A DNA stretch of 64,000 nt from NCBI GenBank assembly GCA_021780495.1, contig JAJXYO010000016.1, forward strand, positions 1-64,000. The letters run 5' to 3'. Of the stretch, positions 2,096 to 43,402 are shown in pieces. Position 1 is the stretch's first letter. The number at the start of each line of letters is the position of its first letter. A program made the position numbers and the translations under genes. Source of the stretch: Deltaproteobacteria bacterium. GTDB lineage: Bacteria > Desulfobacterota > Desulfuromonadia > Geobacterales > Pseudopelobacteraceae. A model generated the notes under the pieces. That model saw only the letters and a program-made list of their open reading frames with translations, did no database searches and was not told the DNA's origin.

Positions 2096-3534
2096 TCTAT
2101 GAAAAATCTGTTCCCGGCCGTCGCGGAGTAAAACTGCCGGCTTCCGATGTGCCCGTTGCTGCGGCGCTTCCCGCAGCTCTGCTGCGCACCGAAGCGGCCG
2201 GTCTGGCCGAGGTGTCCGAGCTTGATCTGGTGCGCCACTTCACCAACCTGTCGCGCCGCAATTTTTCGGTGGATACCAACTTCTATCCGCTCGGTTCCTG
2301 TACCATGAAGTACAACGCCAAGGTCCTGGAGAACGCCGCCGTCCTGTTTGCGCCGTTTCACCCCATGACTGCGCTGCTGCCGGGTGGTGTGGAGGCCTGC
2401 CAGGGCAGCCTGGGCATGCTGTACGATCTGGGGCAGATGCTGGCCGACATCACCGGCATGGATGAAGTCACCACCCAGCCGCTGGCCGGTGCCCATGGCG
2501 AGATGACCGGGATTCTGCTGGTTTCCGCCTACCATGCCGCCAGGGGCAATAAAGCCAAGAAGAAGTACGTGGTGGTCCCTGATTCGTCGCACGGCACCAA
2601 TCCCGCCTCGGCAGCCATTGCCGGGTACGAGATCATTACCGTTCCGACCGCCCCCTACGGCGATATGGATCTGGAGCTGTTCAAAAAGGCCATGACCGAT
2701 GAGGTCGCGGCGGTCATGATAACCTGCCCCAATACGCTGGGGCTGTTCAACCCGCACATCAAGGAGATCAGCGACATCGCCCATTCCCACGATGCCCTGA
2801 TGTACTATGACGGCGCCAATCTGAATGCCATCATGGGCAAGGTCAAGCCGGGCGATGTGGGCTTTGACGTGGTGCATGTCAACCTGCACAAGACCTTCGG
2901 CACGCCCCACGGCGGCGGCGGCCCCGGTTCCGGCCCGGTCGGCGTCAAGAAGGCCCTGATCCCGTTTCTGCCGCAACCGCGCATCGTCATGGATGACGAC
3001 GGCCAGTTCCTCTTTGATGCGCCTCGTACGGCCTCCATCGGCCGTACGGCCAATTTCTACGGCAACTTCGGGGTCATGGTCAAGGCCTACGCCTATATCA
3101 TCATGCTGGGGCGCGTCGGGTTGATCCGGGTGTCCGAGCAGGCGGTGCTGAATGCCAACTACATCAAGGAACGGCTGAAGCCCTATTACGATCTGCCCTA
3201 CGATATGACCTGCATGCACGAATGCGTCTTCTCGGCCTCCAAGCAGCTGGCCCATGGTGTCCATGCCATCGATATATCCAAATTCCTGATCGATCGCGGC
3301 TACCACCCCCCCACGGTGTACTTCCCGATGATCGTCAAGGAAGCCATCATGATCGAGCCGACCGAAACGGAGAGCAAGGCCACCATGGATGCCTTTATCG
3401 AGGTGATGATCGAGGCGGCCCGCACCGCCGAGACCAATCCCCAGGCGCTGCACGATGCACCCTTGACCATGCCGATCTCCCGCCTGGATGAAACCAAGGC
3501 CGCCCGTGAACAGAATGTGTGCTGTCAGTGGTAA
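2086..3534 (+). CDS. gcvPB: Glycine dehydrogenase (decarboxylating) subunit 2
   Basis: The C-terminal half of the P protein (482 residues), which carries the pyridoxal phosphate site. The cofactor lysine is K269 in [14 protein letters not shown], followed by the glycine-rich loop typical of the family. GGAGG at 2074-2078, inside the end of gcvPA, lies seven bases before the ATG at 2086. It forms the glycine decarboxylase with GcvPA and closes the gcv operon, which ends at a strong terminator about 30 bases downstream. Confidence 0.97.
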
Positions 3535-3563
3535 CGGGTATATGAAGTAAGCGCAGACTCATG

Positions 3564-3605
3564 GCGCCTCGTCGATGGTCAAGGACATCGAGGGGGCGCT
3601 TTTTC
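3564..3605 (+). terminator. Rho-independent terminator after gcvPB
   Basis: A long GC-rich stem (3564-3577 with 3586-3599, slightly imperfect) is followed by TTTTT at 3600-3604. It ends the gcv operon just before dgt. Confidence 0.8.
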
Positions 3606-3647
3606 GTTTCACGCGTCCTGTATTTCGCTTGGTTGAGGAATCCCACT

Positions 3648-4790
3648 ATGACCGAATCCACTGAACGTTCTGACCTGGCCGGTTATGCCTGCAGCAGTGC
3701 CGCATCCCGCGGCCGGAAATATCCCGAGGAGTTTCGTGATCAGCGTCCCGCCTTTGAGCGCGACCGGGACCGGATTATCCATTGCGCTGCCTTTCGGCGC
3801 CTGGAATACAAGACCCAGGTCTTTGTCAACCACGAAGGCGATTATTACCGCACTCGGCTGACCCATTCGCTGGAGGTGGCCCAGATCGGCCGCGCCATTG
3901 CCCGCAAACTGCGTCTGAATGAGGAACTGACCGAAGCCCTGGCCCTGGCACACGACCTGGGGCATACCCCCTTCGGGCATACCGGAGAGGAGGTCCTGAA
4001 CCGGTTGATGAAAGGGAAGGGCGGTTTTGAGCACAACCTGCAGTCGTTCCGGGTTGTGGACGAGCTTGAAGAACGTTATCCGGGTTTTAACGGACTCAAC
4101 CTGACTTGGGAACTGCGGGAAGGGATCATCAAACATGCCAGTCCCTACGATGCTCCCACAGAGGCTATGAGCGGCTTCCTGCCGGGAGTGGTGCCTTCTG
4201 TCGAGGGACAGATCATCAACTATGCCGACGAAATTGCCTACAACAACCACGACATCGACGATGGCCTGAAATCCGGGTATATTTCACTGGACATGCTGGA
4301 ACGCATCACGCTCTGGCAGCGGGTCAGCGCTGGTGTGCGCGAGAAATACCCCGCCATCGACGATAAACGTCTCGTCTACCAAACGATCAGCGCCTTGATC
4401 GGTCTTCTGATCGGCGATATCTGCAGTACCATTGGCGCCAACCTGGGACAGCTGTCAATTACTACCCTGGACGACTTGCGCCGCGTCAACCGGCCGGTTG
4501 CCCACTTCAGTGACGATATAACCGTTCTGAACATGGAGCTGAAGCGCTTCCTGTTCGATAATCTCTACCGCCACTACAAGGTCGACAAGATGCGGGTCAA
4601 GGCCGAGATCTTCATCACCCGCCTGTTCGAAACCTACCTGCGCTATCCCAACCTGTTGCCTCCCAAATACCGTTCGCGTATTGAACGCTTCGGCCTGGAG
4701 CGAACGGTGTGCGATTACATCGCCGGGATGACCGACCGATTTGCGCTGGATGAGTATAAACGCTTGTTCGAGCCGTATGAACGGGTGTAG
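3648..4790 (+). CDS. dgt: dGTPase-like HD-domain triphosphohydrolase
   Basis: A predicted deoxyguanosinetriphosphate triphosphohydrolase, which cuts dNTPs to deoxynucleosides and triphosphate and so helps control dNTP pools. The 380-residue product has the ordered HD-superfamily metal ligands: H in RLTHSLEV, HD in ALAHDLGHTPFGH, and a later D in NYADEIAYNNHD. The N-terminal FRDQRPAFERDRDRIIHCAAFRRLEYKTQV stretch is characteristic of the dGTPase family. The ATG at 3648 is preceded by GAGGA at 3635-3639; a longer frame from 3561 would start inside the gcv terminator. Substrate preference among dNTPs cannot be read from sequence. Confidence 0.93.
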   Translation: MTESTERSDLAGYACSSAASRGRKYPEEFRDQRPAFERDRDRIIHCAAFRRLEYKTQVFVNHEGDYYRTRLTHSLEVAQIGRAIARKLRLNEELTEALALAHDLGHTPFGHTGEEVLNRLMKGKGGFEHNLQSFRVVDELEERYPGFNGLNLTWELREGIIKHASPYDAPTEAMSGFLPGVVPSVEGQIINYADEIAYNNHDIDDGLKSGYISLDMLERITLWQRVSAGVREKYPAIDDKRLVYQTISALIGLLIGDICSTIGANLGQLSITTLDDLRRVNRPVAHFSDDITVLNMELKRFLFDNLYRHYKVDKMRVKAEIFITRLFETYLRYPNLLPPKYRSRIERFGLERTVCDYIAGMTDRFALDEYKRLFEPYERV

Positions 4791-28118: not shown

Positions 28119-31100
28119 ATGAAAACTTACACAAAGACGGTTGTCATGTCTCTCCTATGCATGGTTTTTGGTTATTTCTTGTCGGCGAATTGTGCTGAAG
28201 CTGCGGTGATGACTGACTACTGCAATATACCTTCGTTTGTATCCCAGTCTGTGCCGCCGCTGGTACTTCTGACCGCCGGACGTGATCACAAACTTTACTA
28301 TGAAGCATTTAACGAAGCCATGGACTTGGACGAAGATGGTCGTGTCGATATTGGCTATATGCACAACATCGACTATTACGGCTATTTTGATTCGTATAAA
28401 TGTTATACCTACACCAGTGATACAGCTGGGTTTACGCCAGTCTCGACAACCGCCGATAAATTTTGTACGACCGGCCAATGGAGCGGAAATATTCTCAACT
28501 GGCTGGCCATGTCTCGTATGGATGTGTTGCGCAAGGTGCTGTATGGTGGTCATCGCAGCACTGACACCACATCATCAACCGTCCTTGAGCGGGCCTATAT
28601 CCCCGGTGATGCTCATTCCTGGGCAAAAGAAATCCCAGGCGGCTTATGTGCCAGTGGGTCCGTATATAAAAACTCTTGCAATACCAGCCTCGATTGTGAT
28701 TCCGGCTATACCTGTATCGACAAATCTGTGAACTTGATCGGGATGCCTAAGGCTGATAGTTCGGTCTGTCCGGCCACTGCAGTAACCTGGAGTAGTTCCA
28801 CCAATGGTAAAATCATGGTCTCCCAGTTTTGGGCTCAGGCCGGAGGTGCCGCCAACGGTCCCACCCATGCCGACTTGTTGAATTCATTTTACACCGATGC
28901 TACCAACAACACAGTTTCTCCCTTATCGTTGATCAATATGGCTGCCTCGGGCAATCCTGCCGGAACCTCTTCCCAGGTCAAATACATAACCAACTTTAAT
29001 GATGCAGCGGTTGATCCATCCAATGCCCAGACAGCCTATACAAACCTATTGGCCGTAACCGCGTTCACGACCGCAAACAACTCCAATTTGACCGGCTTAT
29101 GGCAATTTGCCGTTGATGGCGATGATGGTGTGGAGGTAGAGATTCTGCCTGCTAATAAGTTGCCTACTAATCCTGCAAACTGGATAGTTGCCAATTATTA
29201 TGGCGGTCATGGGGCCTGTTTTCTACCTTCGGCCACGGCAAATCCCAATAACACGGCATTGTGCAATATATCGCAATCATCACTAAACAATGGATTTTTT
29301 AACTCAACCTATACCGGCAATGTTTGGACACATAAACTCACTGGCTGCTCCGCAGCTATTGATACAATTAGTGGAACCTCCTCAGATGGGTATTGCGTAA
29401 ACGGCGGTATCTATCTGGCAAAAAATACCAAGTATTACATGATCGTGCGCCAGACCAACGGTGTCAGCCAGGGTGGAGTGAAGGTCTGGTATCGCAAGCC
29501 TCTGGATGGTCCTACGGCATGGACTATCTTTGGTGCAGATGCAAACCTGACCCTTTCCTCCCCTACCATAGCCCCAGGAAATGAGTGTAGTATTCGCTAT
29601 CAGACTTTTGTCGATACGGCAGACACGACAACAGGGGCGAACAGGCAGCATCTCATCTGTAGCACGAATCGCTCTCTCACTGGCCCACCCGTGCTGCGAC
29701 TTCTGAAAAACCGCATAGAACGCAAGTGGAACTGGGCCTCCAAGGAACGGCCAGATTGTGCTGACGTTATCCGCAAGATTGATGATAGTGCGGATATTGC
29801 GTTATCAGTAGATGCAACCAAATCCGATGCCACCAAGATCTGGGATTATACGATTAGGGACGAGGTCTGTAAGAATATCTCTCCTGATATCCGTCCAATT
29901 GATAAGAGGGATGCAGCGGCCAGCGGAAGAGAAACTAACTGCCGCGCTTACACGTCTGGAGGGACCACTATCTATAAGCCTGCTGGGCTGTTGCAAAAAT
30001 ACGGTGAGGGCGATACCACTAAGGTTTGCTCACGAACAACCTCAAAGGTATGTGCAACAGATTCTGATTGTACAAATAATGCTTCAGCGGTCCCTCCGGT
30101 TTTTGAAGGGCTCTGCATCGATAAGGCGCCGATGTACTTCGGCCTGCTATCGGGCTCGAATCTCAATAACCAGAACGGTGGTGTACTTCGCAAGGAGATC
30201 TGGGGCCTATCCGACGAAATCAATATGTCTACTGGACAGTTTATTGTGCCTCCATCTTCCTCGCTAGCCGATTTTACAAGCACCTTCCCCCATGGTGGCA
30301 TCATCCCAACCTTTGAAGCTCTCAGGGATGTGGGGTTCAGTTATTCCACCAATGCATACGGTGATAATTCTGGCGCTAATGCTGGCGGAGCCTGCGGCTG
30401 GGTTGAGACCAACCCGGTTGGAAACGGTGAATGCTATATGTGGGGTAACCCGGTCGGTGAAATGATGTATGAAGGCTTGCGTTATTTAGCTGGAAAAGAC
30501 ACCCCCACCAGCACCTTTGCTAGTGGTACTGTTACCAATGTGGTTCAAGATGGCGGCTTGCCACTATTCAATCATCCCTGGGGGGTTGTGAGTGGTGGCA
30601 ATACGTATCGCCCTTACGGCGATAAGGATGATAAATTCCCTATCTTCCCCATCTGCTCCAAGCCGATGATGCTGGTGTTGAGCGATGAAAACCTGAGTTA
30701 TGATTCGGATAGCGTTCCAGGTAGCAAGTTCTCGAACTATACCGAGGATACCGGTTTGCCCAAGTTGAATATTGATGTCTCTGCCATGTCTGATATCATC
30801 GGTGGCCCGAAAAGCAATGGTGGCGAGGGGATTGATGGTTCCAATGTGTTTATCGGCGATGTGAATGATGGTACGACGGTAAGCGATTTTGAGTGCTCCT
30901 CTAAAGTTGCCACCAAGTTTAGTGAGATACGAGGGCTTTGTCCGGAGGAACCTACCAAGCAGGGCAGTTATTATGCTGCAGCTGTAGCCTATTACGGGAA
31001 AACGCTGTTAACCAAGAATACCCAGCAGCTGAATCCTGATAATACTGTCAAGGTTACCGGCAAGCCCAATGTTTCAACATATTCGGTAGTGCTTTCTTCG

Positions 31101-34100
31101 CCCGTACCCAAGATGAACATACGGGTTAACAATAAGGACGTGACCTTGGTGCCGTTCGGCAAGTCAACCAGTGGTGGCGGGGTAAATAACTGTAGCAGCA
31201 AATGCAGCCTGAACATCAATGCCCTTGGCAGCTTGGAAATATCGGGATGTTCGGCGGCAGCAACAGATACGGTAACCGGATCGTTCTGTCCTTCAAACCA
31301 GATTGTGGATTTTTATGCCGATACCATTCTCTACGACAATACCAATGCCCCCCCCTACAACGCCTTAAATCCTGCGCCAAATATCATCTACGCCAAATTC
31401 AGGATTAATTTTGAGGACAGTGAGCAGGGGGCTGACCATGATATGGATGCTATCTCCACCTATGAGATTTGTACCGGTGCTACCTGTTCACCGGCGTTGT
31501 CAGACCCTAATCAGGTCAAGGTCACGGTGACCTCCAACTATGCTGCCGGCGGGATTAATCAGGTAATGGGCTTTGTCATCTCAGGTACGACCGAGGACGC
31601 TCCTTTTCTGGTGGTAAGAGATTCGGACTCGTCGACGAGTTGTTCAACTAACCCCGGTTCGTGTGGTCTGCCGCTAGCCTGGACTCACACATTTACTGCC
31701 TCATCTACAGGTACTACGACAAGCTTGTTGCATAGCCCGCTCTGGTATGCCGCAAAGTGGGGCGGTTTCAATGATAGTAATGCGCCTATAGATCCTGCAG
31801 CCCTGGCTACCTATGTACCCAAACCCGATTTGCTCGGAGAGTGGGCAAAAAATGATGGTGTTAATCCTGACAATTATTATCTCGTCGTAAATCCGCTTAA
31901 GCTCGAACAGCAACTCGACAAGGCCTTGACGGATATCCTTAAAAGAACATCTTCTGGTACGTCTGCTTCAATCCTCAATAGTGGTGAAGGCAGCGGTGCA
32001 ACGATGTTACAGGCCGTATTCTATCCGAAAAAAATGTATGAAAACCAGACTTCTGCAACCTGGTCAGGAGAACTATTTAATCTCTGGTACTACGTCGACC
32101 CGTTTTTAACGAGAAGCACAATTCTTGAGGACACCGACACGGATCATGTACTCGACACGAAGGATGATAAACGTATTCAATTTACCCTAGATAGCAGTGC
32201 GATGCAGACGAATATTTTACGTTACAATTTTGATGGTACCACTGAGTTGGCAGATAGTAATGGCGATGTGACCGGAGGCCTGAAAACCAACTGGACGGCG
32301 GGCAAATTATTGTGGAAGCGGGATATAACGATAGATCCCCGGACGATATACACAACCACCGACTTGCAGAATCTGGTGCCTTTTGATCCTGTAAACGCAG
32401 CCCTATTAAGTCCGCTATTAAATGCCGAAGGCGCCGATGCAGTAGCAAAAACAGCCTTCGCCGGAAACGTGATAGATTATGTGCTCGGAACAGACGTCTG
32501 CCTCGATGCATCATCACCATGTACCAATAAAAGCCGTAACAGAACCATCGATATTAAGGTGTCGGACTCCACGATAGAAAGCCATGTCTGGAAGCTTGGG
32601 GACATCGTCTCGTCTACTCCAAAAATTCAGGGAGACATGCCTCTGCAATTATTTGATTATCCCTACCCTGCTGGATACGGCGACACGTCATATAAACCGT
32701 TTTACAGCAAGGACACGTACAAAAACCGCGGTATGGTCTACGTAGGGGCTAATGATGGCATGCTGCATGCCTTTAAGCTGGGAAAAATTGCCATTGCAGA
32801 CCGTGGCACACAGCATGCCACGTTGAGCGGCACGAACCTGGGACGTGAGGAATGGGCCTATATCCCCCAGAATGTGCTGCCGTACCTCAAATATCTGACC
32901 CTGCCGGATTACGACACCAATCATCTCTATCTGGTTGATGGCGCCATCAAATTGTTTGATGTCTCGACCAAGACCTCTGCTCCGCGGGACGATTACTGGA
33001 ATGAGCCTAAAGAAAACACACTCGGCTCAAACTGGAAAACAGTGCTGTTGGGTGGCATGGGGTTGGGTGGGGCCTCTAAAGCTTTCAATGACACATGTGT
33101 TGCAGGCAGTTCCGCCGGCACCTGTGTGAAGGCCCCCTATGATACGAGCCATGGCTTTTCTTCCTACTTTGCGCTGGACGTAACGGATCAGGATTTTTAT
33201 CAGGATTCTGCGAACCTGTTGCGCACCCAACCCAAGCTGATGTGGGAATTTTCAGACCCGCGACTGGGCTTTTCGACATCCGGCCCGGCCTTAGTGCGTC
33301 TTAATTCAAAAGAAACCGTTGCGCCCTTTACCCCTCATAAAACCAATAATGGCAGATGGTTTGCCATCTACGCCTCCGGTCCTACCGGACCGATCGACAG
33401 CATTACCAAACAGTTTCAAGGCAAGTCGGATCAAAACCTCAGGCTGTTTGTTGTGGATTTGGAAAAAGGCCCGGTGGTAAACTCGGACCCCAAAAAAAAT
33501 GGATTATGGGTCATCGATACCGGCATACCGAATGCCTTTGCCGGTTCTATCAGCAATAATGCCGTTTCTGATACAGAGATGGCCGGTGGCGTCAAAGATG
33601 ATCCAAATGTCTATCAGGATGATGTCGTGTATGTGGGCTATACCAAAGAAGCGGCGGACGGAACCTGGACCGACGGCGGGGTGTTGCGGCTCGTTATCCC
33701 CGATAGCGCCAACCCCGATGTTATGTGGTCAAGCCCGACAGATGCCAGCGCCTGGAAAACATCCAAAGTGGTTGACGGTATCGGACCGGTCACCACAACA
33801 GTAGCAAAACTTTTTTCAACTAATAATATGTACCTCTTCTTTGGCACCGGAAGATACTTCTATCCTCAGGACGACATGACTTCGACCCGCAGGTTGTTTA
33901 TGGTCAAGGAACAATGTTACCCCGTAAAAGACGCCGGTGGAAAGACGACAAAGTCAGATCTGATTGATGCGTGTGATGCGTCCAATCCTGCTATTACAAC
34001 CGTGGGCCTGGCGGATCTTACCTCGAAGACCACCCCCAACACCGACACCGTTGCCAACGGCTGGTACATCGACCTTGATCCCGGTGAGCGGGTTGTAACA

Positions 34101-34448
34101 GATACCGTGGCAACGCGCAACGGGTCCATATTTTATACCACCTACAAGCCGAATACCGACGTATGTGCCTACGGCGGCAAGTCATATCTTTGGGGAGTAA
34201 ACTATGCTACCGGTGGCGAACTGCCGCCATCAGCCAAAAAAGGCAAGGTGGTTATACAGACGTCGACCGGCAGTTTTGCAGAGGTTGATCTCGCCTCTGC
34301 CCTCACGGACAAAGATGGTCGCAGAACGGGTGAAGCAACCCCGGAACTGTCATATGGCAAGGCCTCTGGTGACGCAGGGCTGTTTTTGACGTCTGCGGGT
34401 CTGCAACCGGTAAAACGCATATTGCATATACAGGAGCGCTACAAGTGA
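28119..34448 (+). CDS. pilY1: Giant PilY1-like pilus tip/adhesin protein
   Basis: A 2109-residue exported protein, nearly twice the size of Pseudomonas PilY1. PilY1 proteins cap type IV pili, bind calcium and govern pilus extension and attachment. A signal peptide (about 1-28) is followed by an EF-hand-like loop DLDEDGRVDIGY (about 69-80). Two cysteine-rich inserts lie near residues 175-205 and 635-668. A further acidic DTDTDHVLD loop is near 1337. The C-terminal PilC/PilY1 beta-propeller starts near 1490 (GMVYVGANDGMLHAF near 1540). No VWA metal-site motif is seen at the N-terminus. It overlaps the first minor-pilin gene by four bases. Confidence 0.92.
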   Translation: MKTYTKTVVMSLLCMVFGYFLSANCAEAAVMTDYCNIPSFVSQSVPPLVLLTAGRDHKLYYEAFNEAMDLDEDGRVDIGYMHNIDYYGYFDSYKCYTYTSDTAGFTPVSTTADKFCTTGQWSGNILNWLAMSRMDVLRKVLYGGHRSTDTTSSTVLERAYIPGDAHSWAKEIPGGLCASGSVYKNSCNTSLDCDSGYTCIDKSVNLIGMPKADSSVCPATAVTWSSSTNGKIMVSQFWAQAGGAANGPTHADLLNSFYTDATNNTVSPLSLINMAASGNPAGTSSQVKYITNFNDAAVDPSNAQTAYTNLLAVTAFTTANNSNLTGLWQFAVDGDDGVEVEILPANKLPTNPANWIVANYYGGHGACFLPSATANPNNTALCNISQSSLNNGFFNSTYTGNVWTHKLTGCSAAIDTISGTSSDGYCVNGGIYLAKNTKYYMIVRQTNGVSQGGVKVWYRKPLDGPTAWTIFGADANLTLSSPTIAPGNECSIRYQTFVDTADTTTGANRQHLICSTNRSLTGPPVLRLLKNRIERKWNWASKERPDCADVIRKIDDSADIALSVDATKSDATKIWDYTIRDEVCKNISPDIRPIDKRDAAASGRETNCRAYTSGGTTIYKPAGLLQKYGEGDTTKVCSRTTSKVCATDSDCTNNASAVPPVFEGLCIDKAPMYFGLLSGSNLNNQNGGVLRKEIWGLSDEINMSTGQFIVPPSSSLADFTSTFPHGGIIPTFEALRDVGFSYSTNAYGDNSGANAGGACGWVETNPVGNGECYMWGNPVGEMMYEGLRYLAGKDTPTSTFASGTVTNVVQDGGLPLFNHPWGVVSGGNTYRPYGDKDDKFPIFPICSKPMMLVLSDENLSYDSDSVPGSKFSNYTEDTGLPKLNIDVSAMSDIIGGPKSNGGEGIDGSNVFIGDVNDGTTVSDFECSSKVATKFSEIRGLCPEEPTKQGSYYAAAVAYYGKTLLTKNTQQLNPDNTVKVTGKPNVSTYSVVLSSPVPKMNIRVNNKDVTLVPFGKSTSGGGVNNCSSKCSLNINALGSLEISGCSAAATDTVTGSFCPSNQIVDFYADTILYDNTNAPPYNALNPAPNIIYAKFRINFEDSEQGADHDMDAISTYEICTGATCSPALSDPNQVKVTVTSNYAAGGINQVMGFVISGTTEDAPFLVVRDSDSSTSCSTNPGSCGLPLAWTHTFTASSTGTTTSLLHSPLWYAAKWGGFNDSNAPIDPAALATYVPKPDLLGEWAKNDGVNPDNYYLVVNPLKLEQQLDKALTDILKRTSSGTSASILNSGEGSGATMLQAVFYPKKMYENQTSATWSGELFNLWYYVDPFLTRSTILEDTDTDHVLDTKDDKRIQFTLDSSAMQTNILRYNFDGTTELADSNGDVTGGLKTNWTAGKLLWKRDITIDPRTIYTTTDLQNLVPFDPVNAALLSPLLNAEGADAVAKTAFAGNVIDYVLGTDVCLDASSPCTNKSRNRTIDIKVSDSTIESHVWKLGDIVSSTPKIQGDMPLQLFDYPYPAGYGDTSYKPFYSKDTYKNRGMVYVGANDGMLHAFKLGKIAIADRGTQHATLSGTNLGREEWAYIPQNVLPYLKYLTLPDYDTNHLYLVDGAIKLFDVSTKTSAPRDDYWNEPKENTLGSNWKTVLLGGMGLGGASKAFNDTCVAGSSAGTCVKAPYDTSHGFSSYFALDVTDQDFYQDSANLLRTQPKLMWEFSDPRLGFSTSGPALVRLNSKETVAPFTPHKTNNGRWFAIYASGPTGPIDSITKQFQGKSDQNLRLFVVDLEKGPVVNSDPKKNGLWVIDTGIPNAFAGSISNNAVSDTEMAGGVKDDPNVYQDDVVYVGYTKEAADGTWTDGGVLRLVIPDSANPDVMWSSPTDASAWKTSKVVDGIGPVTTTVAKLFSTNNMYLFFGTGRYFYPQDDMTSTRRLFMVKEQCYPVKDAGGKTTKSDLIDACDASNPAITTVGLADLTSKTTPNTDTVANGWYIDLDPGERVVTDTVATRNGSIFYTTYKPNTDVCAYGGKSYLWGVNYATGGELPPSAKKGKVVIQTSTGSFAEVDLASALTDKDGRRTGEATPELSYGKASGDAGLFLTSAGLQPVKRILHIQERYK

Positions 34449-34951
34449 ACCGGCGCGGTTTTACGCTCATAGAGCTATTGATTGTGATTGTCGTGGCCGG
34501 CATCCTGCTCTCTATTGCCGTGCTGAATTTTGCCGAATATTTGCGCAAGGGCGCAGTCGAGCGGCAGACAAAAGAGATGTATTCCGATCTGATGGCAGCC
34601 AGGACGGCGGCGGTCACACAACGCAGTCCCAAGCGCGTCATCATTACACCAACGGTTTTCCGCTCCATATCATCATCAATTGGAAGCAGTATAGGATTAT
34701 CCACGACCAAGGTCTTATCGCATCCTGTCACCTGGTCCGGTAAATCCGCCAGTGATACTGAAGTGGAGATAGATTTTGATGAACGAGGTACCTTCAATAT
34801 TGATGCCGGTAACGGTAATACAACAATCTGCATCGAGCCATCCGTCCAGTCGGCTCAATATGACAGCATAGTGGTCTATTCTACCAGAATTCATCTCGGC
34901 AAGGTTGCTTTTGGAGGAGCGTGCAATAGTGATAATGTTACCGTTAAATAA
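34445..34951 (+). CDS. Minor pilin, FimT/GspH type
   Basis: A 168-residue type IV prepilin. A four-residue leader precedes the PilD cleavage site in RRGFTLIELLIVIVVAG, with glutamate at position 5 of the mature protein, then a hydrophobic helix and a globular domain with two late cysteines, as in FimT/FimU or GspH. It starts at GTG 34445 with AGGAG about eight bases before, overlapping pilY1 by four bases. It probably joins the priming complex that carries PilY1. Confidence 0.9.
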   Translation: MNRRGFTLIELLIVIVVAGILLSIAVLNFAEYLRKGAVERQTKEMYSDLMAARTAAVTQRSPKRVIITPTVFRSISSSIGSSIGLSTTKVLSHPVTWSGKSASDTEVEIDFDERGTFNIDAGNGNTTICIEPSVQSAQYDSIVVYSTRIHLGKVAFGGACNSDNVTVK

Positions 34952-35330
34952 GCGTACCGGCTTTACGTTGCTGGAAGTTCTGGTGGCTTTGGTGATCCTG
35001 ATGGTTGGAATGATGGCGTTATTGTCGGCAGCCAATAATGCGATCAGTTTTAATATGGATAATATTCTGCGGGATGAAGCGGTGCAAATTGCAGATGCTA
35101 AAATGCGTGTTGTGAAAGCCAACAATGCCGCCACATTTTCACTGCCGTTCCAGAATCTTTCTATTGTCTCAATTCAGCAGAGCAAACTTGGATCGAAATC
35201 TACGCCTTATACGGTAACCCTGTCGTCCTCTACAACCGGGGGGGACTCGAATCTCATACAAGTCCTGGTGTCGTGGAATTATAAAAACAAGCTAAAAAAG
35301 CACGAATTGTCGACTTTAAAAACCTATTAA
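34929..35330 (+). CDS. Minor pilin, PilV/GspI type
   Basis: A prepilin of about 133 residues with the site KRTGFTLLEVLVALVILMVGMMAL, the wording typical of PilV/GspI pseudopilins. GGAGGAG at 34913-34919 best serves the GTG at 34929, which overlaps the previous gene by 23 bases; an ATG at 34935 is also possible. The mature domain is short and lacks cysteine. It sits second in the minor pilin series. Confidence 0.88.
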   Translation: MIMLPLNKRTGFTLLEVLVALVILMVGMMALLSAANNAISFNMDNILRDEAVQIADAKMRVVKANNAATFSLPFQNLSIVSIQQSKLGSKSTPYTVTLSSSTTGGDSNLIQVLVSWNYKNKLKKHELSTLKTY

Positions 35331-35342
35331 AGGGTTGGGGCT

Positions 35343-36665
35343 ATGAAGCTTAAATACTCTACACATACACGTGGATTTACACTTATTGAACTGGTTATCG
35401 TTATGGCAATCTTTATGATTGTGATGATAATCAGTGCCAAAGCATTTGAAAATGTGATCAAGATCAGCACCAGAACGCTGACGTCAGCCCAGAGTCAGAT
35501 AGAAGGGATTGTTGGCCTTCAAATCCTCAGGACAGACCTCAATGCTGCCGGTTACGGTCTGCCCTGGAGTTTTCAAACGGATCCAAATCCTGCTTCCTAT
35601 CTGGAAGCGGATCTCGGCGCCGACAACCCGGTAAAAGGTTTGAGTGCGGATGATTTCAATGACGCCCCACCCAACAGCTCCACAGCGGCTCCAACCCCTA
35701 CCGCTCCACGAGCTGTCGTTGTTGGTACCGTTCCGGTAACCCAGGATCCCATTTTTGCTGGTACCGGCATGAACGCCAACCCCGGTTCAAAATACCTGGT
35801 CATCAAGTCAGCTGCTGTTGCCTTTAACAGCTCTGTTGGCAAATGGGGCTATGTAAATTACTCGGGCAGTCAAAGCTATATACCGAAATCTAATTCCGCT
35901 GAAGACCTGGTGGCGAACGAGGCTGTGATTACACAATCCGACAAATTTGGTAATAGCGCGGCTCTGCACGTCCTCGCGATGCAGGATGCCTCACATTTTT
36001 CATATACACTTGGCGCTACCGATGCCTTTGGGCGTTTCGTGCCGCCGGACTCGAATTATATGCCCTCGGGTTATATTACCGATCCTTTTGGAGCAAAGAT
36101 AACTAACGAAAAAATGATTACGTATGCCATCAAAAGCTTTGATGCGGGTAGTACTGATTCTTTGCGCATGCCCTTCAACCGCGCCGACTATTTTGTTATG
36201 CGGCCAACCGGCAATAGCATGCCGTCGCGCTGCAATCCGGGCACCGGGGTCTTGTACAAGGCGGTGATCATAAATTCCATGACCGCCAGCGGTGGTGGGC
36301 GAACACTCTATCCTCTTTTGGATTGTGTCGGCGATATGCAGGTCTTATTTGATATGCAGGATCCTGCTGATGCCAACAAGACCATGACGACCGATACGCT
36401 TGCCACATTGACAGCAGAAGATATTCGCGCCCGCTTAAAGGCCATACGAGTTTTCTTACTCGTGCAGGAAGGCGCTAAAGACAACAGTTATTCATATCCC
36501 TATGCCAACGCCAACAATGTTATAACCGTCTCGGACGATCACACGCCCAGTTTAGGTCGAACATTTACAAAGACAGATATGATTAATTTCTTTGGTCCGG
36601 AATGGGATAAATATCGCTGGAAGGTCTATTCCGTTGTGGGGCAGCCGTATAATTTAATGTACTGA
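35343..36665 (+). CDS. Minor pilin, PilW type
   Basis: A 440-residue prepilin, long for its class but usual for PilW. The leader ends at TRG before FTLIELVIVMAIFMIV, followed by LQILRTDLNAAGYGLPW, typical of PilW/GspJ proteins that act near the pilus tip. The rest is a large globular domain rich in alanine and proline near 110-130, with only two cysteines. GGGGC precedes the ATG; the gap to the gene before is 12 bases. Confidence 0.88.
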   Translation: MKLKYSTHTRGFTLIELVIVMAIFMIVMIISAKAFENVIKISTRTLTSAQSQIEGIVGLQILRTDLNAAGYGLPWSFQTDPNPASYLEADLGADNPVKGLSADDFNDAPPNSSTAAPTPTAPRAVVVGTVPVTQDPIFAGTGMNANPGSKYLVIKSAAVAFNSSVGKWGYVNYSGSQSYIPKSNSAEDLVANEAVITQSDKFGNSAALHVLAMQDASHFSYTLGATDAFGRFVPPDSNYMPSGYITDPFGAKITNEKMITYAIKSFDAGSTDSLRMPFNRADYFVMRPTGNSMPSRCNPGTGVLYKAVIINSMTASGGGRTLYPLLDCVGDMQVLFDMQDPADANKTMTTDTLATLTAEDIRARLKAIRVFLLVQEGAKDNSYSYPYANANNVITVSDDHTPSLGRTFTKTDMINFFGPEWDKYRWKVYSVVGQPYNLMY

Positions 36666-36687: not shown

Positions 36688-37374
36688 ATGAAATTAATAG
36701 TATCAAACAACAAGGGCATCGCTTTAGTGACGTCCCTTATGCTGACGTTGGTTATCCTTGGGATTGTCATGGCACTGTTTTATGTCTTGACTCAGTCCAT
36801 GAAAATCTCTGCTGCTACCAAAAGGTACCAGAGTGTCACCGAAGCTACGTATGGCGGTAGTGAGTTTATGGCGTTTGATCTTATCGGAAATGCCTGGAAG
36901 AATTATTCTTCAGCCGGCGGGATGTCAAGCCAGTTGGTTAATAGCTATGGCAACATCAATCTTGCCGTATCAACCTCAGATGATTGTCTGAGGCAAAAAC
37001 TGAGTTCGCCAACCACAAACTGGACGAAATGTTCAGCGGCTCAAAAATCCATGGATATAGCCTCAATCAAAACGTCCCCCGACATGACCTTTCTTCTCAA
37101 GGGAGCTGCAACCGGCCAGCATTATAAAGTGTATGCAAAAATTCTTGAAGCAACGGCAGGTAATACCGATACCTCGGCAGGTTCAATGCTGACTGCCGCA
37201 GATAGTGGTGGTTTCGATGACGCTTCTGGGGTAGCCTATCAAACGCCATATACTGGGGGGGGGGGAGGAGCTGCTATAAAGCAAATACCATACACGTATC
37301 GCATCGATGTACAGGGCGAAAAAGAAACAAATCCAATGGAGAAATCCAATGTATCTGTTCTGTATGCATATTAA
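36688..37374 (+). CDS. Minor pilin, PilX type, with an 11-G tract
   Basis: A 228-residue PilX-like protein. It has the helix NKGIALVTSLMLTLVILGIVM, lacking the glutamate of ordinary pilins as in GspK/PilX proteins that sit at the tip, and then a globular domain with cysteines near 100-120. ATG 36688 is preferred over 36667 because the longer form adds a foreign tail. A run of 11 G (37255-37265) codes a glycine stretch at 190-194. Losing one G brings a stop within about six codons; gaining one reads on past the normal stop. This is the last gene of the pilY1 unit. Confidence 0.87.
   Translation: MKLIVSNNKGIALVTSLMLTLVILGIVMALFYVLTQSMKISAATKRYQSVTEATYGGSEFMAFDLIGNAWKNYSSAGGMSSQLVNSYGNINLAVSTSDDCLRQKLSSPTTNWTKCSAAQKSMDIASIKTSPDMTFLLKGAATGQHYKVYAKILEATAGNTDTSAGSMLTAADSGGFDDASGVAYQTPYTGGGGGAAIKQIPYTYRIDVQGEKETNPMEKSNVSVLYAY
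37255..37265 (+). repeat. Homopolymeric tract of 11 G
   Basis: Eleven consecutive G within the PilX-like coding region. Such tracts are known slippage sites in phase-variable surface genes. It is the longest single-base run I noticed in the window. Confidence 0.95.
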
Positions 37375-37545
37375 CGAAGAGTTACAAGTCTCATCGTATA
37401 ACATACAAACACTTAACGAGTGCAGTGATATCTTTTTCAAGTGCTTGTGTTTTGGCCAATGAGAGATGACTTCAGATATAATCAATAGGAAATCTGACTA
37501 TAAAAATATTGTTTCTTAATATAATATATAATTGTATAAAAAAAC

Positions 37546-37612: not shown

Positions 37613-37813
37613 ATGAAGCCTCGTAACAATGTAAAATCAATTCGCGAATCACGCCTTTTAAGCAAGGCAGAGCTGGCCCGCAAGGCGGGTGTCTCTTCGC
37701 TTACGGTAGATAGGGTCGAGCGAGGTGAGCCTTGCCGCCTTGAAACAATGCGTAAAATAATACTGGCCCTTGGCTTTTCACTGGATGAAAAAGAAAAAGT
37801 ATTTCAGGATTGA
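37613..37813 (+). CDS. Small XRE-family DNA-binding protein
   Basis: A 66-residue protein that is almost only a helix-turn-helix of the lambda-repressor/XRE type (about 8-60: KSIRESRLLSKAELARKAGV, then SSLTVDRVERGE). It lies 18 bases before pilM and probably belongs to the same transcript, so it may control the pilM operon. No strong ribosome site precedes the ATG. It carries no sensor domain. Confidence 0.85.
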   Translation: MKPRNNVKSIRESRLLSKAELARKAGVSSLTVDRVERGEPCRLETMRKIILALGFSLDEKEKVFQD

Positions 37814-37831: not shown

Positions 37832-38887
37832 ATGTTTCTTTTTAGCAAGACAAAAGAGGTTGTTGGTATAGATATCGGATCTAGCTCGGTTAAGCTCGTT
37901 CAGCTTAGAGATCTGAAGGGTTCCTATCAGTTGCTAAATGTCGGAATTATCCCGCTTCCGCCGGAAGCAATAGTCGATAACACGCTTATGGATAGTTCTG
38001 CAATTGTGGGGGCTATTCATAACCTTATCACTAGCCTGGGGATCAAGGTAAAGGATGTAGCCTGCTCCATTTCGGGCAATTCAGTCATTATTCGTAAAAT
38101 CATTCTCCCCGCTATGCCCCTTGAAGAGCTTGAGGATCAAATAACCTGGGAAGCGGAACAATACATCCCTTTTGATATCAATGATGTCAATATGGATTTC
38201 CAAATCCTGTCTCCCGACAGCATAGACCCTTCCAAGATGAATGTTCTGCTGGTAGCCAGCAAAAAAGATATTATCAATGATTATGTTGCTGTGTTTAATG
38301 AATCCGGATTGCATCTGTCGGTGGTTGATGTCGACTCTTTTGCGGTGCAGAATGCATTTGAGATGAATCATGATACGGGTGTAGAAGACGTTATTGCGCT
38401 GATTAATATTGGTGCAAGCGTCATGAATATCAATGTTATTAAAAGCGGTGTTACCTTGTTTACCCGTGATGTACAGATGGGGGGCAATCTTTACACGGAA
38501 GAGATTCAAAAACAGATGGGCCTGAGCAGTTCTGAAGCTGAGTCAATAAAAATACTGGCACATGAGGCTCATAGTGCTGCGCTTCTTGATGTGCTTAGCA
38601 AGGTAAATGAGACCATCAGCCAGGAGATTCGACGTTCACTCGATTTTTATAATTCAACAGCGAATGACGATCGTATTACCAAAATACTTTTAAGCGGTGG
38701 CGGGTCAAAGGTCTATAAGCTTATTGAGGTAATAACCGATAAAACAGGTCTGGCTGTTGAAGTAATTAATCCATTTGCAAGGCTAAAATATAATGAAAAG
38801 GACTTTGACTCTGAATACCTTCAGGAAATCGGCCCGTTTATGGCAGTGACGGTCGGGCTTGCTATTAGGAGGGTAGGAGACAAATGA
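37832..38887 (+). CDS. pilM: Type IV pilus inner-membrane platform protein PilM
   Basis: A 351-residue cytoplasmic actin-like ATPase-fold protein that binds the N-terminus of PilN and links the motor to the alignment complex. It has the actin-like phosphate loop VGIDIGSSSVKLVQL and the second motif LLSGGGSKV. GGGAATGAG precedes the ATG. It overlaps pilN by four bases. This is the first of the ordered pilMNOPQ series. Confidence 0.96.
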   Translation: MFLFSKTKEVVGIDIGSSSVKLVQLRDLKGSYQLLNVGIIPLPPEAIVDNTLMDSSAIVGAIHNLITSLGIKVKDVACSISGNSVIIRKIILPAMPLEELEDQITWEAEQYIPFDINDVNMDFQILSPDSIDPSKMNVLLVASKKDIINDYVAVFNESGLHLSVVDVDSFAVQNAFEMNHDTGVEDVIALINIGASVMNINVIKSGVTLFTRDVQMGGNLYTEEIQKQMGLSSSEAESIKILAHEAHSAALLDVLSKVNETISQEIRRSLDFYNSTANDDRITKILLSGGGSKVYKLIEVITDKTGLAVEVINPFARLKYNEKDFDSEYLQEIGPFMAVTVGLAIRRVGDK

Positions 38888-39465
38888 TAAAGATTAATCT
38901 TTTACCGGTCAGAGCTGCAAAGAAGAAGGAAACAGCAGTCCAGCAGATAACAATTTTCTGCATTACTCTGATTGTGGTTTTTGTTATTTGTGGTGCCTTG
39001 TATGCGGTTAAGCTTGGACAAATATCATCTGCAAAGAACGATATTGCGGCAGCAAATAGCAGGATTAATGAATTGAAAGTCAAAATCGGCAAATTGGAAG
39101 AACTGAAAAACCTCAAAGAACAGGTCAATAAAAAATTAGATGTATTATCACAGTTACGTAAAAATAAGACAGGCCCTGCTCAGCGCCTTGCAACAATAAG
39201 CGAAATTACTCCAGAACAACTGTGGTTAACAGCTTATACAGAAACCGGCGATAACATCAAGATAGCAGGCATTGCTGTTAAAGATGATTTGATTGCTCAG
39301 TTTATGCGAAATATTCAATCGTCAAATGATTTTACCGGTGTTGAACTGATTGTATCTGAGCAGAAAGAAATATCAGGCAGCAAGGTCAAAAGTTTTGAGT
39401 TAACGTGTCGGCTTAAATCATCAGTCGTACTACAGCCAGCAGCTGTAATAAATACAAAAAAATAG
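38884..39465 (+). CDS. pilN: Type IV pilus assembly protein PilN
   Basis: A 193-residue bitopic inner-membrane protein. The first residues (MIKINLLPVRAAKKKE) carry the INLLP motif that PilM binds, followed by one membrane helix (about 20-42), a coiled-coil segment (about 48-90) and a periplasmic ferredoxin-like domain. AGGAG lies five bases before the ATG. It pairs with PilO in the alignment complex. Confidence 0.95.
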   Translation: MIKINLLPVRAAKKKETAVQQITIFCITLIVVFVICGALYAVKLGQISSAKNDIAAANSRINELKVKIGKLEELKNLKEQVNKKLDVLSQLRKNKTGPAQRLATISEITPEQLWLTAYTETGDNIKIAGIAVKDDLIAQFMRNIQSSNDFTGVELIVSEQKEISGSKVKSFELTCRLKSSVVLQPAAVINTKK

Positions 39466-39493
39466 TTTCTTTCTTATTCAGGATGGATTGGAT

Positions 39494-40105
39494 ATGGACC
39501 CTCAATTAGAAAAAATACTCAAGTTGCCGACAAAACAGAAGATTCTTATTCTTGTTTTGGTCGCTATGCTTGAGGCTGCCGCTCTGGTCTGGTTTCTATA
39601 TCTGCCAAAGCACAAAGAACTTAGTGGGTTGCAAATTGAATTAAGCAAACTTCAATCAGAAATAGATGACAAAACCCGGATAGCTGGTAATTTGCCAAAG
39701 TTGCAAAAAGAATATGATCAGTTGAACCTTGAATTGGCTCAAGCGTTGACGGAGCTCCCAAATTCTAAAGAAATACCGTCATTGTTGACAAATATAACAG
39801 ATCTTGGAAAAAGCGCCGGACTTGATTTTTTGGTTTTCAGACCAAAGGGCGAAGTGGTTAAAGATTTTTATGCGGAAGTACCCGTTGATATTGTGATTTC
39901 CGGTACATATTTCAGCGTAGCAAACTTCTTTGCCATGGTTTCCAATCTGCCGAGAATTATCAATATCACCAATGTGGCTTTTTCCGATATTAAAAATGTC
40001 AACAATAGGATGATGATGAAGGTTTCGTGCCTTGCCACTACATTCCGCTTCCTTGATAAGAAAGAGATTAAGGATGAAAAGAAAAATGCTCCTCCTAAAA
40101 AATAA
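39494..40105 (+). CDS. pilO: Type IV pilus assembly protein PilO
   Basis: A 203-residue bitopic inner-membrane protein with a membrane helix (about 17-38), a coiled coil (about 42-85) and a periplasmic domain. It heterodimerises with PilN and contacts PilP. The ATG at 39494 has AGGATGG about eight bases before it; a TTG at 39488 is less likely. Its end overlaps the start of pilP in another frame. Confidence 0.94.
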   Translation: MDPQLEKILKLPTKQKILILVLVAMLEAAALVWFLYLPKHKELSGLQIELSKLQSEIDDKTRIAGNLPKLQKEYDQLNLELAQALTELPNSKEIPSLLTNITDLGKSAGLDFLVFRPKGEVVKDFYAEVPVDIVISGTYFSVANFFAMVSNLPRIINITNVAFSDIKNVNNRMMMKVSCLATTFRFLDKKEIKDEKKNAPPKK

Positions 40106-40625
40106 CCGCATTTGCGAAATCTCAGTTTTACTGAGCATTACAGTGCTTTTTATCGGCTGTAATAAAGGTACACAGTCTCCGGCTGTTGCTCCCGCTGTTG
40201 CTGTGCAAAAAATGCCTAAACCCGTACAAAAGCCTGTCAGTTCCGCTCTTAAATCGAATAACCAACAACCGGGCAATTTATTTGACTTCAGTAACAAAAA
40301 AGACCCTTTTAAGCCTTTTGTTGTTGCAAAATCAGCCCCTGCAGATCTCAAAAAGTCTTTACAATCGGGACTTCCCATTCACAGTTTCGATGTCAGTCAG
40401 TTTAAATTGATCGGAATTGTAACGGGTGGTAAGGAAAATCATGCAATGGTGGTTGACCCTAATGGTAAGGGCTATGTACTGAAGGTAGGTATGACGATAG
40501 GAAGAAATGATGGGCGTGTAACTTCGATTAGTACGAGTGGCGTTGATGTTGTTGAACAATTTAAGGATGATAGCGGCAGGGTGCGTAAAGAACACATTAA
40601 GATCACCCTCCCCAGGAAACAATAA
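40074..40625 (+). CDS. pilP: Type IV pilus lipoprotein PilP
   Basis: A lipoprotein of about 183 residues that connects PilNO with the secretin PilQ. The signal segment ends in the lipobox LFIGC, then comes a disordered proline/glutamine-rich linker (about 30-75) and the PilP beta domain (about 105-180), with a PFKPF motif before it. The start could be ATG 40074 or ATG 40086; both keep the signal peptide, and the ribosome site AAGGA suits neither perfectly. It overlaps pilO by 20-32 bases. Confidence 0.9.
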   Translation: MKRKMLLLKNNRICEISVLLSITVLFIGCNKGTQSPAVAPAVAVQKMPKPVQKPVSSALKSNNQQPGNLFDFSNKKDPFKPFVVAKSAPADLKKSLQSGLPIHSFDVSQFKLIGIVTGGKENHAMVVDPNGKGYVLKVGMTIGRNDGRVTSISTSGVDVVEQFKDDSGRVRKEHIKITLPRKQ

Positions 40626-40636
40626 GGAGTTTTCGC

Positions 40637-43402
40637 ATGATGTGGATGACAAAAGCATTGATGATCCTTGCGCTTAGCATTGTTGTGTCGTCAGGTCTTG
40701 TGACTGCAACGCCGGGCAAAGCCGAATCAGCGCAGCTTGGCATTAAGTCTTCCCTTGGCAAGCTTGCTTCGATCAAGTCGATTCGTGCTTCTGGCGAAGG
40801 GGATGCGACGGAGCTTGTTATAAATCTATCATCGCCAACGACATATACCAGCTATAAAACAACTAATCCATTGCGTCTGGTGCTGGACCTTTCACAGGCT
40901 ACTCAAGGTGAATTTGTAACTCCTCAAATATTCAATAAAGGCAATTTTAAAACAGTAACCGCGACGCGCTTTGATACTGATGCCGGAGTGCTTACCCGTG
41001 TTGATATTGAGCTCAAAACTGATGCTGAAGCAGTTATAACAGCTTCAAAGCCTAATGAGTTGAGAATTTCATTTCCGAGCCTTTCTACAACCCCCAATAC
41101 GCTCTCACCTGCCAAGCCGACAGCACTATCTTCGAACCAAAATACTATAAAGCCCTCAGTGGTTGTTGCTCCCACTGTTCAACCCGTGACTGTCACCAGG
41201 AAATTAACCTCTGTTACAGCTTCTAATAATTCGATACTTCTTTCAGTTGATGGCGGTGTCGCTGATTTCAAAACATTCCGTCTTAATAAGCCAGAGCGTT
41301 TTGTGGTAGATCTATTGGATACGCAACTTGCACTTTCTTCGCGGATTATTCCGCTCAATTCGGCAGGAGTAGCCTCAGCCCGCATCGGCCTCTATCCTGA
41401 TAAAGTTCGTGTCGTTCTTGATTCCGTCAATGGAACGTTTCCGGAAGTTTCAACAAAGAAGACAGCCGAAGGTTTAATTGTTGCCCTAAATGTACAACCA
41501 AATGAAAATCCGAATACTACTCTGGTGGCAACCCACTCTGGAAAAAGCACTGTTACACCAGTAACAACTTTAAATGCAGTTGTATCTACACCTGCTCAGC
41601 CTTTAAAACCAGTACACGAAAAGCTCGCAGAGCAGCCAGCGCCAGTTGCTGTTGTTAAGCCGATAATTGCTAAGAAAGTAAGTAATGAAGTGTTTACTGG
41701 CCCTGCTAGAGTTGAGATGATTGATTTTCAGGTTATTGATGGCGTTTCTCGCATCGCTGTGAAGGTTACTGGGGCTGTTGCAGTCGATCAGCCGGTCAAA
41801 ACCCCTGGATTTGTTACGCTAACAATCAAAAATGCCGGCTTGTCCAAGCATCTTCAACGTTCTTTAGAGACTCAATCATTCGTAACCCCGGTCTTACGCA
41901 TCACACCACTTCTTATCAAGACAAGAAAAGGCATCAATACCAAAATTCGAATTGCAATGCGCGTTGATGCGCCTTTTACATTCAGGCATGAAGGCGACAT
42001 GCTCTTTGTGGATTTTAAAAATCCCGATGGTTTAACTGCAGATACGGTCTCAGCAGCGTTGCAGAATCCTAACAAGGTGCATGCCGCAAAGGTTGCTAAA
42101 CCCTCCTCGTTAACGAAAGATTCCGAATTGGTATCAGAATTGTCTCCTGTTGAAGATTCGGCAATTAAATACCATGGCTCTGAGCATGTATACAAAGGCA
42201 GGAAAGTAACACTGGAATTTGCCGACGCCGATGTCCGCAAGATTTTTCAGCTTTTGTCGGAAGTCAGTAATAAGAACTTTGTGCTCGGTGATGATGTCAC
42301 AGGAACCATCAGCATAAAACTTGTTAACGTACCCTGGGACCAGGCTCTCGATATCATCCTGGATACGAAAGGTCTCGATAAACGAGAAGAAGGAAACATT
42401 ATCATTATCAAGGGTAAGGGCAAGTTCAAGTCTCAGGCCGATGAGGATCTTGAAATCAAGAAGGCATTAATAAGATCAATTGAACTAAAGACTGAAATCT
42501 TTAATATTAACTATGCGGATGTCTCAAGCATCGTTACGCAACTGAATTCGCTTAAAACTGATCGTGGTTCTATTCTTCAAGATACTCGTACAAATAAAGT
42601 AATTGTAAAGGATATACCTCAGGTCATCGATGATATGCGTAAGATGATCAATCAGCTTGATGTCCCCGAAAAACAGGTTATGATCGAAGCACGAATAGTC
42701 GAGGCAACTTCCACATTTACCAGAAGCCTCGGTGTAAACTGGGGCATTCATTATCGTGATGGTTCCGCCTCGTTTATGGGAATCAACCAGTTGGATACAA
42801 GCTTTGGAGGCCAGGCTTCAAATGCGTCCCCAACTTCCGGTGTTTCAGGTAACTCAGGTGGCGCAATGGGGATTTCCTTTGGAACGCTGACCAGTAATAT
42901 TTCTCTAGATCTGCGTTTGAACGCCGCGGCCAGTGCTGGTCTTATTAAAATAGTATCAACACCAAAGGTGGCCACGCTTAATAATAAAACCGCCAAGATA
43001 GCTCAAGGTCAGCAGATTCCGTACACCTCTGCAACCTCGGATAAGGTAGAAACCAAGTTTGTCGAGGCAGCGCTCTCTCTTGAAGTTACACCGCATATAA
43101 ACGCCAATGGAACTATCGGCATGAAGATCGATGCCAAAAACGATTCTGTTGGACAAGCAACTGGCGGAAGTACGGCGCCTGCAATTAACAAAAAACAGGC
43201 AACGACTGAGATGTTGTTACGGGATGGGGAAACGACGGTTATAGGTGGTATTTACGTAGACAGTGATAATGAATCTGATGATGGTGTTCCTTACTTGATG
43301 GATATTCCTTTCTTGGGGAAACTCTTTAAATCCAATAACAAGACTAAGATTAAGAATGAGTTGCTGATTTTTATTACTCCCAGAATATTAAATACGATTT
43401 GA
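40637..43402 (+). CDS. pilQ: Type IV pilus secretin PilQ
   Basis: The outer-membrane secretin through which the pilus passes. The 921-residue product has a signal peptide (about 1-30), AMIN-type beta domains near 45-140 and 190-280 that bind peptidoglycan, probably a third near 355-460, a secretin short N-terminal domain (about 515-590), an N1 domain (about 610-690) and the secretin core with VMIEARIVEA and a C-terminal LLIFITPRIL. AAGGAG lies before the ATG. It is long for PilQ because of the extra AMIN-like module and linkers. Confidence 0.95.
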   Translation: MMWMTKALMILALSIVVSSGLVTATPGKAESAQLGIKSSLGKLASIKSIRASGEGDATELVINLSSPTTYTSYKTTNPLRLVLDLSQATQGEFVTPQIFNKGNFKTVTATRFDTDAGVLTRVDIELKTDAEAVITASKPNELRISFPSLSTTPNTLSPAKPTALSSNQNTIKPSVVVAPTVQPVTVTRKLTSVTASNNSILLSVDGGVADFKTFRLNKPERFVVDLLDTQLALSSRIIPLNSAGVASARIGLYPDKVRVVLDSVNGTFPEVSTKKTAEGLIVALNVQPNENPNTTLVATHSGKSTVTPVTTLNAVVSTPAQPLKPVHEKLAEQPAPVAVVKPIIAKKVSNEVFTGPARVEMIDFQVIDGVSRIAVKVTGAVAVDQPVKTPGFVTLTIKNAGLSKHLQRSLETQSFVTPVLRITPLLIKTRKGINTKIRIAMRVDAPFTFRHEGDMLFVDFKNPDGLTADTVSAALQNPNKVHAAKVAKPSSLTKDSELVSELSPVEDSAIKYHGSEHVYKGRKVTLEFADADVRKIFQLLSEVSNKNFVLGDDVTGTISIKLVNVPWDQALDIILDTKGLDKREEGNIIIIKGKGKFKSQADEDLEIKKALIRSIELKTEIFNINYADVSSIVTQLNSLKTDRGSILQDTRTNKVIVKDIPQVIDDMRKMINQLDVPEKQVMIEARIVEATSTFTRSLGVNWGIHYRDGSASFMGINQLDTSFGGQASNASPTSGVSGNSGGAMGISFGTLTSNISLDLRLNAAASAGLIKIVSTPKVATLNNKTAKIAQGQQIPYTSATSDKVETKFVEAALSLEVTPHINANGTIGMKIDAKNDSVGQATGGSTAPAINKKQATTEMLLRDGETTVIGGIYVDSDNESDDGVPYLMDIPFLGKLFKSNNKTKIKNELLIFITPRILNTI

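Follow-up and report, generated by a model that had tools for sequence, protein, structure and literature searches.

In pathogenic Neisseria, the pilus protein gene pilC, a homologue of pilY1, is phase-variable through a G(9-20) run (PMC5953494), and poly-G/C homopolymers of nine or more bases are counted as hypermutable in the Neisseria phasome (PMC5953494). Kingella kingae that has lost pilX is less piliated and neither adheres nor twitches (PMC12607826). Mutation rises with homopolymer length and is held back by mismatch repair (PMC5854121). In a meningococcal reporter, switching from G11 to G12 is rare (median 1.2e-9) and switching from G10 to G9 is roughly a hundredfold commoner (PMC4085013), so slippage rate is not readable from tract length alone. 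Literature searches on Geobacter slippage and on PilX phase variation brought up no title or abstract describing a phase-variable pilX. Here we analyse an eleven-G tract in a pilX gene of a Geobacter-like bacterium, contained in a 64,000-nucleotide stretch of DNA (the window). Our analysis indicates that this tract is probably a lineage-specific, chance-level homopolymer tolerated in a flexible protein loop rather than an evolved switch.

A G11 tract in a PilX-family minor pilin gene

The tract comprises exactly 11 G at 37255-37265 on the forward strand, with T and A on either side. It lies near the 3' end of pilX (36688..37374, forward strand), which encodes a 228-residue PilX-family minor pilin that matches Pfam PilX_N (PF14341) at 26.0 bits, above the cut-off of 25.5. 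In the assembled genome the 11 G leave pilX in frame over its full length, its likely start being the ATG at 36688 within an open reading frame spanning 36667/36688-37374. The codons at the tract read GGG GGG GGG GGA GGA, specifying five glycines, and the homopolymer itself (GGG GGG GGG GG-A) encodes Gly190-Gly193.

pilX is the last gene of a pilY1-fimT/gspH-pilV-pilW-pilX cluster that is almost gapless, lies on one strand and is adjoined by pilMNOPQ. The cluster begins with pilY1 (28119..34448; 2109 residues; Pfam T4P_PilY1 above cut-off), followed by fimT/gspH-like (34445..34951), pilV-like (34905..35330) and pilW-like (35343..36665) minor pilin genes. All three match Pfam N_methyl, above cut-off for the pilW-like gene, and the names FimT, PilV and PilW are based in part on matches below family cut-offs (TIGR01708 GspH, E=3e-10; TIGR02523 PilV, E=2.7e-8; PilW, 22.8 bits with a cut-off of 26). 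Between pilX and pilM lies a small gene of the Cro/C1-type HTH class (37613..37813, forward strand; Pfam HTH_3), and pilM, pilN, pilO, pilP and pilQ follow on the same strand (37832..43402; Pfam PilM_2, PilN, PilO, PilP and Secretin). In the pilX-pilM interval we found no terminator-like site, and promoter-like sites at about chance level. The gene thus has both the PilX_N domain and the position in a fimT-pilV-pilW-pilX-pilY1 cluster that characterize the family. These Pfam and TIGR matches and the gene order bear out a sequence-only reading that had placed an eleven-G tract in a PilX-like minor pilin, within a unit of minor pilins and PilY1. Shorter runs occur within the open frames of two other genes in the cluster: pilY1 has a C8 run (31348-31355) and the pilV-like gene a G7 (35238-35244).

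Predicted consequences of slippage for PilX

Computed translation showed that loss of one G yields a protein of 196 residues ending in TGGGEELL, with a stop ending at 37279, and that gain of one G yields a protein of 260 residues, whose stop lies in the interval that precedes the HTH gene and ends at 37469. Both outcomes agree with the earlier hand translation, which had put a stop within about six codons of a one-base loss and read-through of the normal stop after a one-base gain. With 8 G or 14 G the frame is retained and the protein has lost or gained a single glycine, respectively.

An AlphaFold2 model of PilX (30 sequences, mean pLDDT 81) places the five tract glycines inside a Gly/Ser-rich loop, residues 165-196 (37180..37275, forward strand). 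The loop has pLDDT below 50, varies in length and sequence among homologues and is probably flexible. Downstream of it, the model and the homologue alignment define two conserved C-terminal β-strands, residues 202-212 and 219-227 (37291..37368, forward strand), which fall in blocks of mean pLDDT 90-95. In most PilX homologues the family tail resembles YRxEVQGE...SVLYAY, and Y226 and Y228 are invariant across 30 aligned sequences. A PDB fold search with the PilX model returned no significant match to solved structures.

The conserved strands and the last 34 residues are lost in the computed products of both the 10-G and the 12-G alleles. Because the conserved tail and strands lie 3' of the tract, a frameshift would remove half of a four-stranded sheet, and a frameshifted pilX allele should be null, with PilX off rather than remodelled. 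The sequence-only reading had named the right 34 residues but had described them as altered; removal of the conserved strands instead means loss of function, not a changed surface. We propose that G11 arose in the flexible glycine-rich loop, which would tolerate extra glycines. A one- or two-base slip would delete the two conserved strands and would most likely leave a non-functional PilX, with fewer or tip-defective type IV pili, whereas a three-base slip would alter loop glycine number only.

An alternative explanation is a contingency locus, in which G11 is kept as a reversible on/off switch: PilX is made with 11 G and lost with 10 or 12 G, giving fewer pili or less PilY1 display, by analogy with Neisseria pilC. 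The tract exceeds the Neisseria phasome cut-off of nine, and at the sequence level a one-unit change would alter or abolish expression, the conserved strands being lost in both shifted frames. The phase variation of pilC and the Kingella pilX phenotype cited above also speak for such a switch.

A run of this length could also act on RNA. Polymerase slippage or ribosomal frameshifting, possible in principle at such a run length, would let a single DNA allele yield full and truncated PilX in a fixed proportion. However, recoding is unneeded, since the zero frame is both open and conserved; the shifted products lack the conserved ending, and the tract site is not conserved in relatives. We regard recoding as extremely improbable.

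G-runs across the genome and among relatives

Nowhere else in the window does a G or C run exceed 8 bases, and the number of runs of at least 11 predicted by synonymous redraws of the window coding sequence is about 0.02. Across the genome, a 3.68-Mb draft in 68 contigs that is 90% complete, both strands together hold 78 G-runs of at least 8, 20 of at least 9, 5 of at least 10 and 2 of at least 11; a model of independent bases at 50% GC predicts 84, 21, 5.3 and 1.3. A genome-wide excess of G-runs, considered as a sign of contingency loci, was rejected on these counts, which equal chance. In-frame G/C runs of 9-10 also occur in genes whose products are not at the surface, identified by eye from sequence and including pgk (phosphoglycerate kinase), purM and cheA; the genome shows neither enrichment in tracts nor a preference for surface genes, housekeeping genes carrying runs of 9-10 as well. 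By per-genome counts, G11 is present in 109 of 141 genomes of the order, and this genome is close to the median, with an overlapping match count of 4 here and a median of 3.

The longest G/C run in the genome, at 13 bases (G000:C51:35649-35661; L160:4650-4662), lies between genes, some 100 bp upstream of one named tatC-like by eye, where it could act on the promoter rather than on the frame. The same locus carries a SAQPTD/FAQPTD tandem repeat (L160:1000-1500) inside a gene that by eye resembles the ribonuclease R family.

PilX homologues were found in 114 of the 141 genomes of the order. Relatives of this genome that carry a name in the public collection belong chiefly to Geobacteraceae and other Desulfuromonadales, and are in large part MAGs. 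The nearest PilX proteins (67-68% identity), from L060 (a MAG) and L142, are identical in sequence and are encoded in the loop by ACC GGA GCA GGC GGC, with no run. The next nearest, from L143 (57%), has ACA GGA GGG AGC. Among the homologues read, which came from relatives, named loci and loci across the order, none has the tract at this site, L060/L142, L143 and L144 included. Among 106 distinct PilX genes only two hold a G-run longer than 8, the remaining 104 of the other 105 having no run of 9 or more. The second is pilX of Geomonas propionica (L085:2013-2023), whose in-frame G11 (GAT GTG GGG GGG GGG GTG) occupies another site of this loop region, where a congener (L098) has GGC GGA GGC and no run. 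Synonymous redraws predict 0.08 PilX genes with such a run versus the 2 observed (n=106), a small number from a procedure that ignores the lengthening of runs by slippage itself. Repeated expansion in the PilX loop, or selection there, would be compatible with this difference, although the two sites are not homologous. One could suppose on these grounds that PilX, and not PilY1/PilC, is the phase-variable part of the pilus tip in some Geobacterales, its loop G-runs expanding repeatedly, here and in Geomonas propionica, so that their slippage switches the display of pili in a free-living lineage; we consider this quite improbable.

Among the PilX matches of the order we saw no complete out-of-frame pilX copy. 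The L143 match near a contig end carries a stop as the second codon of the stretch that matched, beyond which the frame is open to the normal end, and one genome (G035) holds a partial second pilX copy with two stops.

A gene for a secreted lipoprotein elsewhere in the genome is a better place than pilX to look for slippage. This gene (G000:C33; L161) encodes a signal peptide, Vgb_lyase propeller repeats and Big_1/Invasin_D3 domains, and its assembled allele is out of frame. The frame breaks exactly at a G10 run (G000:C33:94397-94406; L161:2898-2907), where the N-terminal part (L161:2410-2991) joins its continuation (2832-4646). Matches to the lipoprotein were found in 11 of 76 family genomes, its own included. 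The gene is a candidate off-phase allele, pseudogene or assembly length error, and the broken frame may mean that slippage is really occurring in the lineage.

An error in assembly or consensus could likewise affect pilX, the true tract length being different, for example 8 or 14 G, which are also in frame. Homopolymers are error-prone, the genome is a 90% complete draft in 68 contigs, and the G10 interrupts an otherwise open gene as a length error there would. Against this, 11 G keeps the full frame and the conserved C-terminus, which otherwise only lengths differing by multiples of three would do, and we hold such an error in pilX to be very improbable.

Taken together, the tract has two of the properties expected of a phase-variable locus, its length and its effect on the frame, and lacks two others, conservation of the site and a genome-wide excess. 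The out-of-frame surface lipoprotein and the second G11 in Geomonas propionica add to the case for a contingency locus. The count of G-runs at chance level, the runs of 9-10 in housekeeping genes, the nearest relatives without a run, the lack of a complete off-phase pilX among the matches and the presence of MutS and MutL homologues, both above curated cut-offs, argue against it, and we judge it unlikely. The phase-variation switch proposed in the sequence-only reading is not upheld on the same grounds, close relatives having the same glycine loop without the run; its general point, that G11 is prone to slippage, is supported. Because the genome run count is at chance and the nearest relatives lack the run, we read G11 as an ordinary slippage-prone spot. 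We infer that it slips at the rate usual for a tract of this kind in mismatch-repair-proficient cells, and that it is not kept for switching.

Comparison with described systems

The pilX tract resembles Neisseria pilC1/pilC2 in being a long G-run in a gene of the pilus-tip module in which a one-base slip produces a frameshift, and its 11 G fall within the range reported for pilC (PMC5953494). In contrast to pilC, in which the coding sequence of a PilY1 homologue carries the run, the run here lies near the 3' end of pilX; tract-length variation is documented in Neisseria, whereas pilX of this species was read from one genome, in which tracts of this kind are not in excess. The likeness to the Kingella kingae fimT-pilV-pilW-pilX cluster lies in the PilX_N domain, the N-terminal hydrophobic helix, the gene order and the nearby pilY1. 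From the PilX-family homologues of its own order, this PilX differs only by the glycine run in its loop.

Were the tract to switch, phase variation of the pilus tip by simple repeats, so far a feature of host-adapted pathogens, would also operate in a Geobacter-like lineage that is free-living and in which pili matter for attachment. As matters are, the case serves rather as a warning, since a striking G11 in a surface gene is expected once or twice per 3.7-Mb genome at about 50% GC. Coding homopolymers in Listeria inlA (PMC2831843) and in Vibrio mutation-accumulation lines, such as the 9C run of V. cholerae tcpC (PMC5854121), offer a further comparison. Frequencies or events were measured in those cases, and the over-represented tracts in PMC2831843 are poly-A/T and 5'-located, unlike the 3'-proximal poly-G of pilX. 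Like them, the pilX tract is a coding homopolymer that makes indels locally more frequent but does not thereby prove that a switch has evolved.
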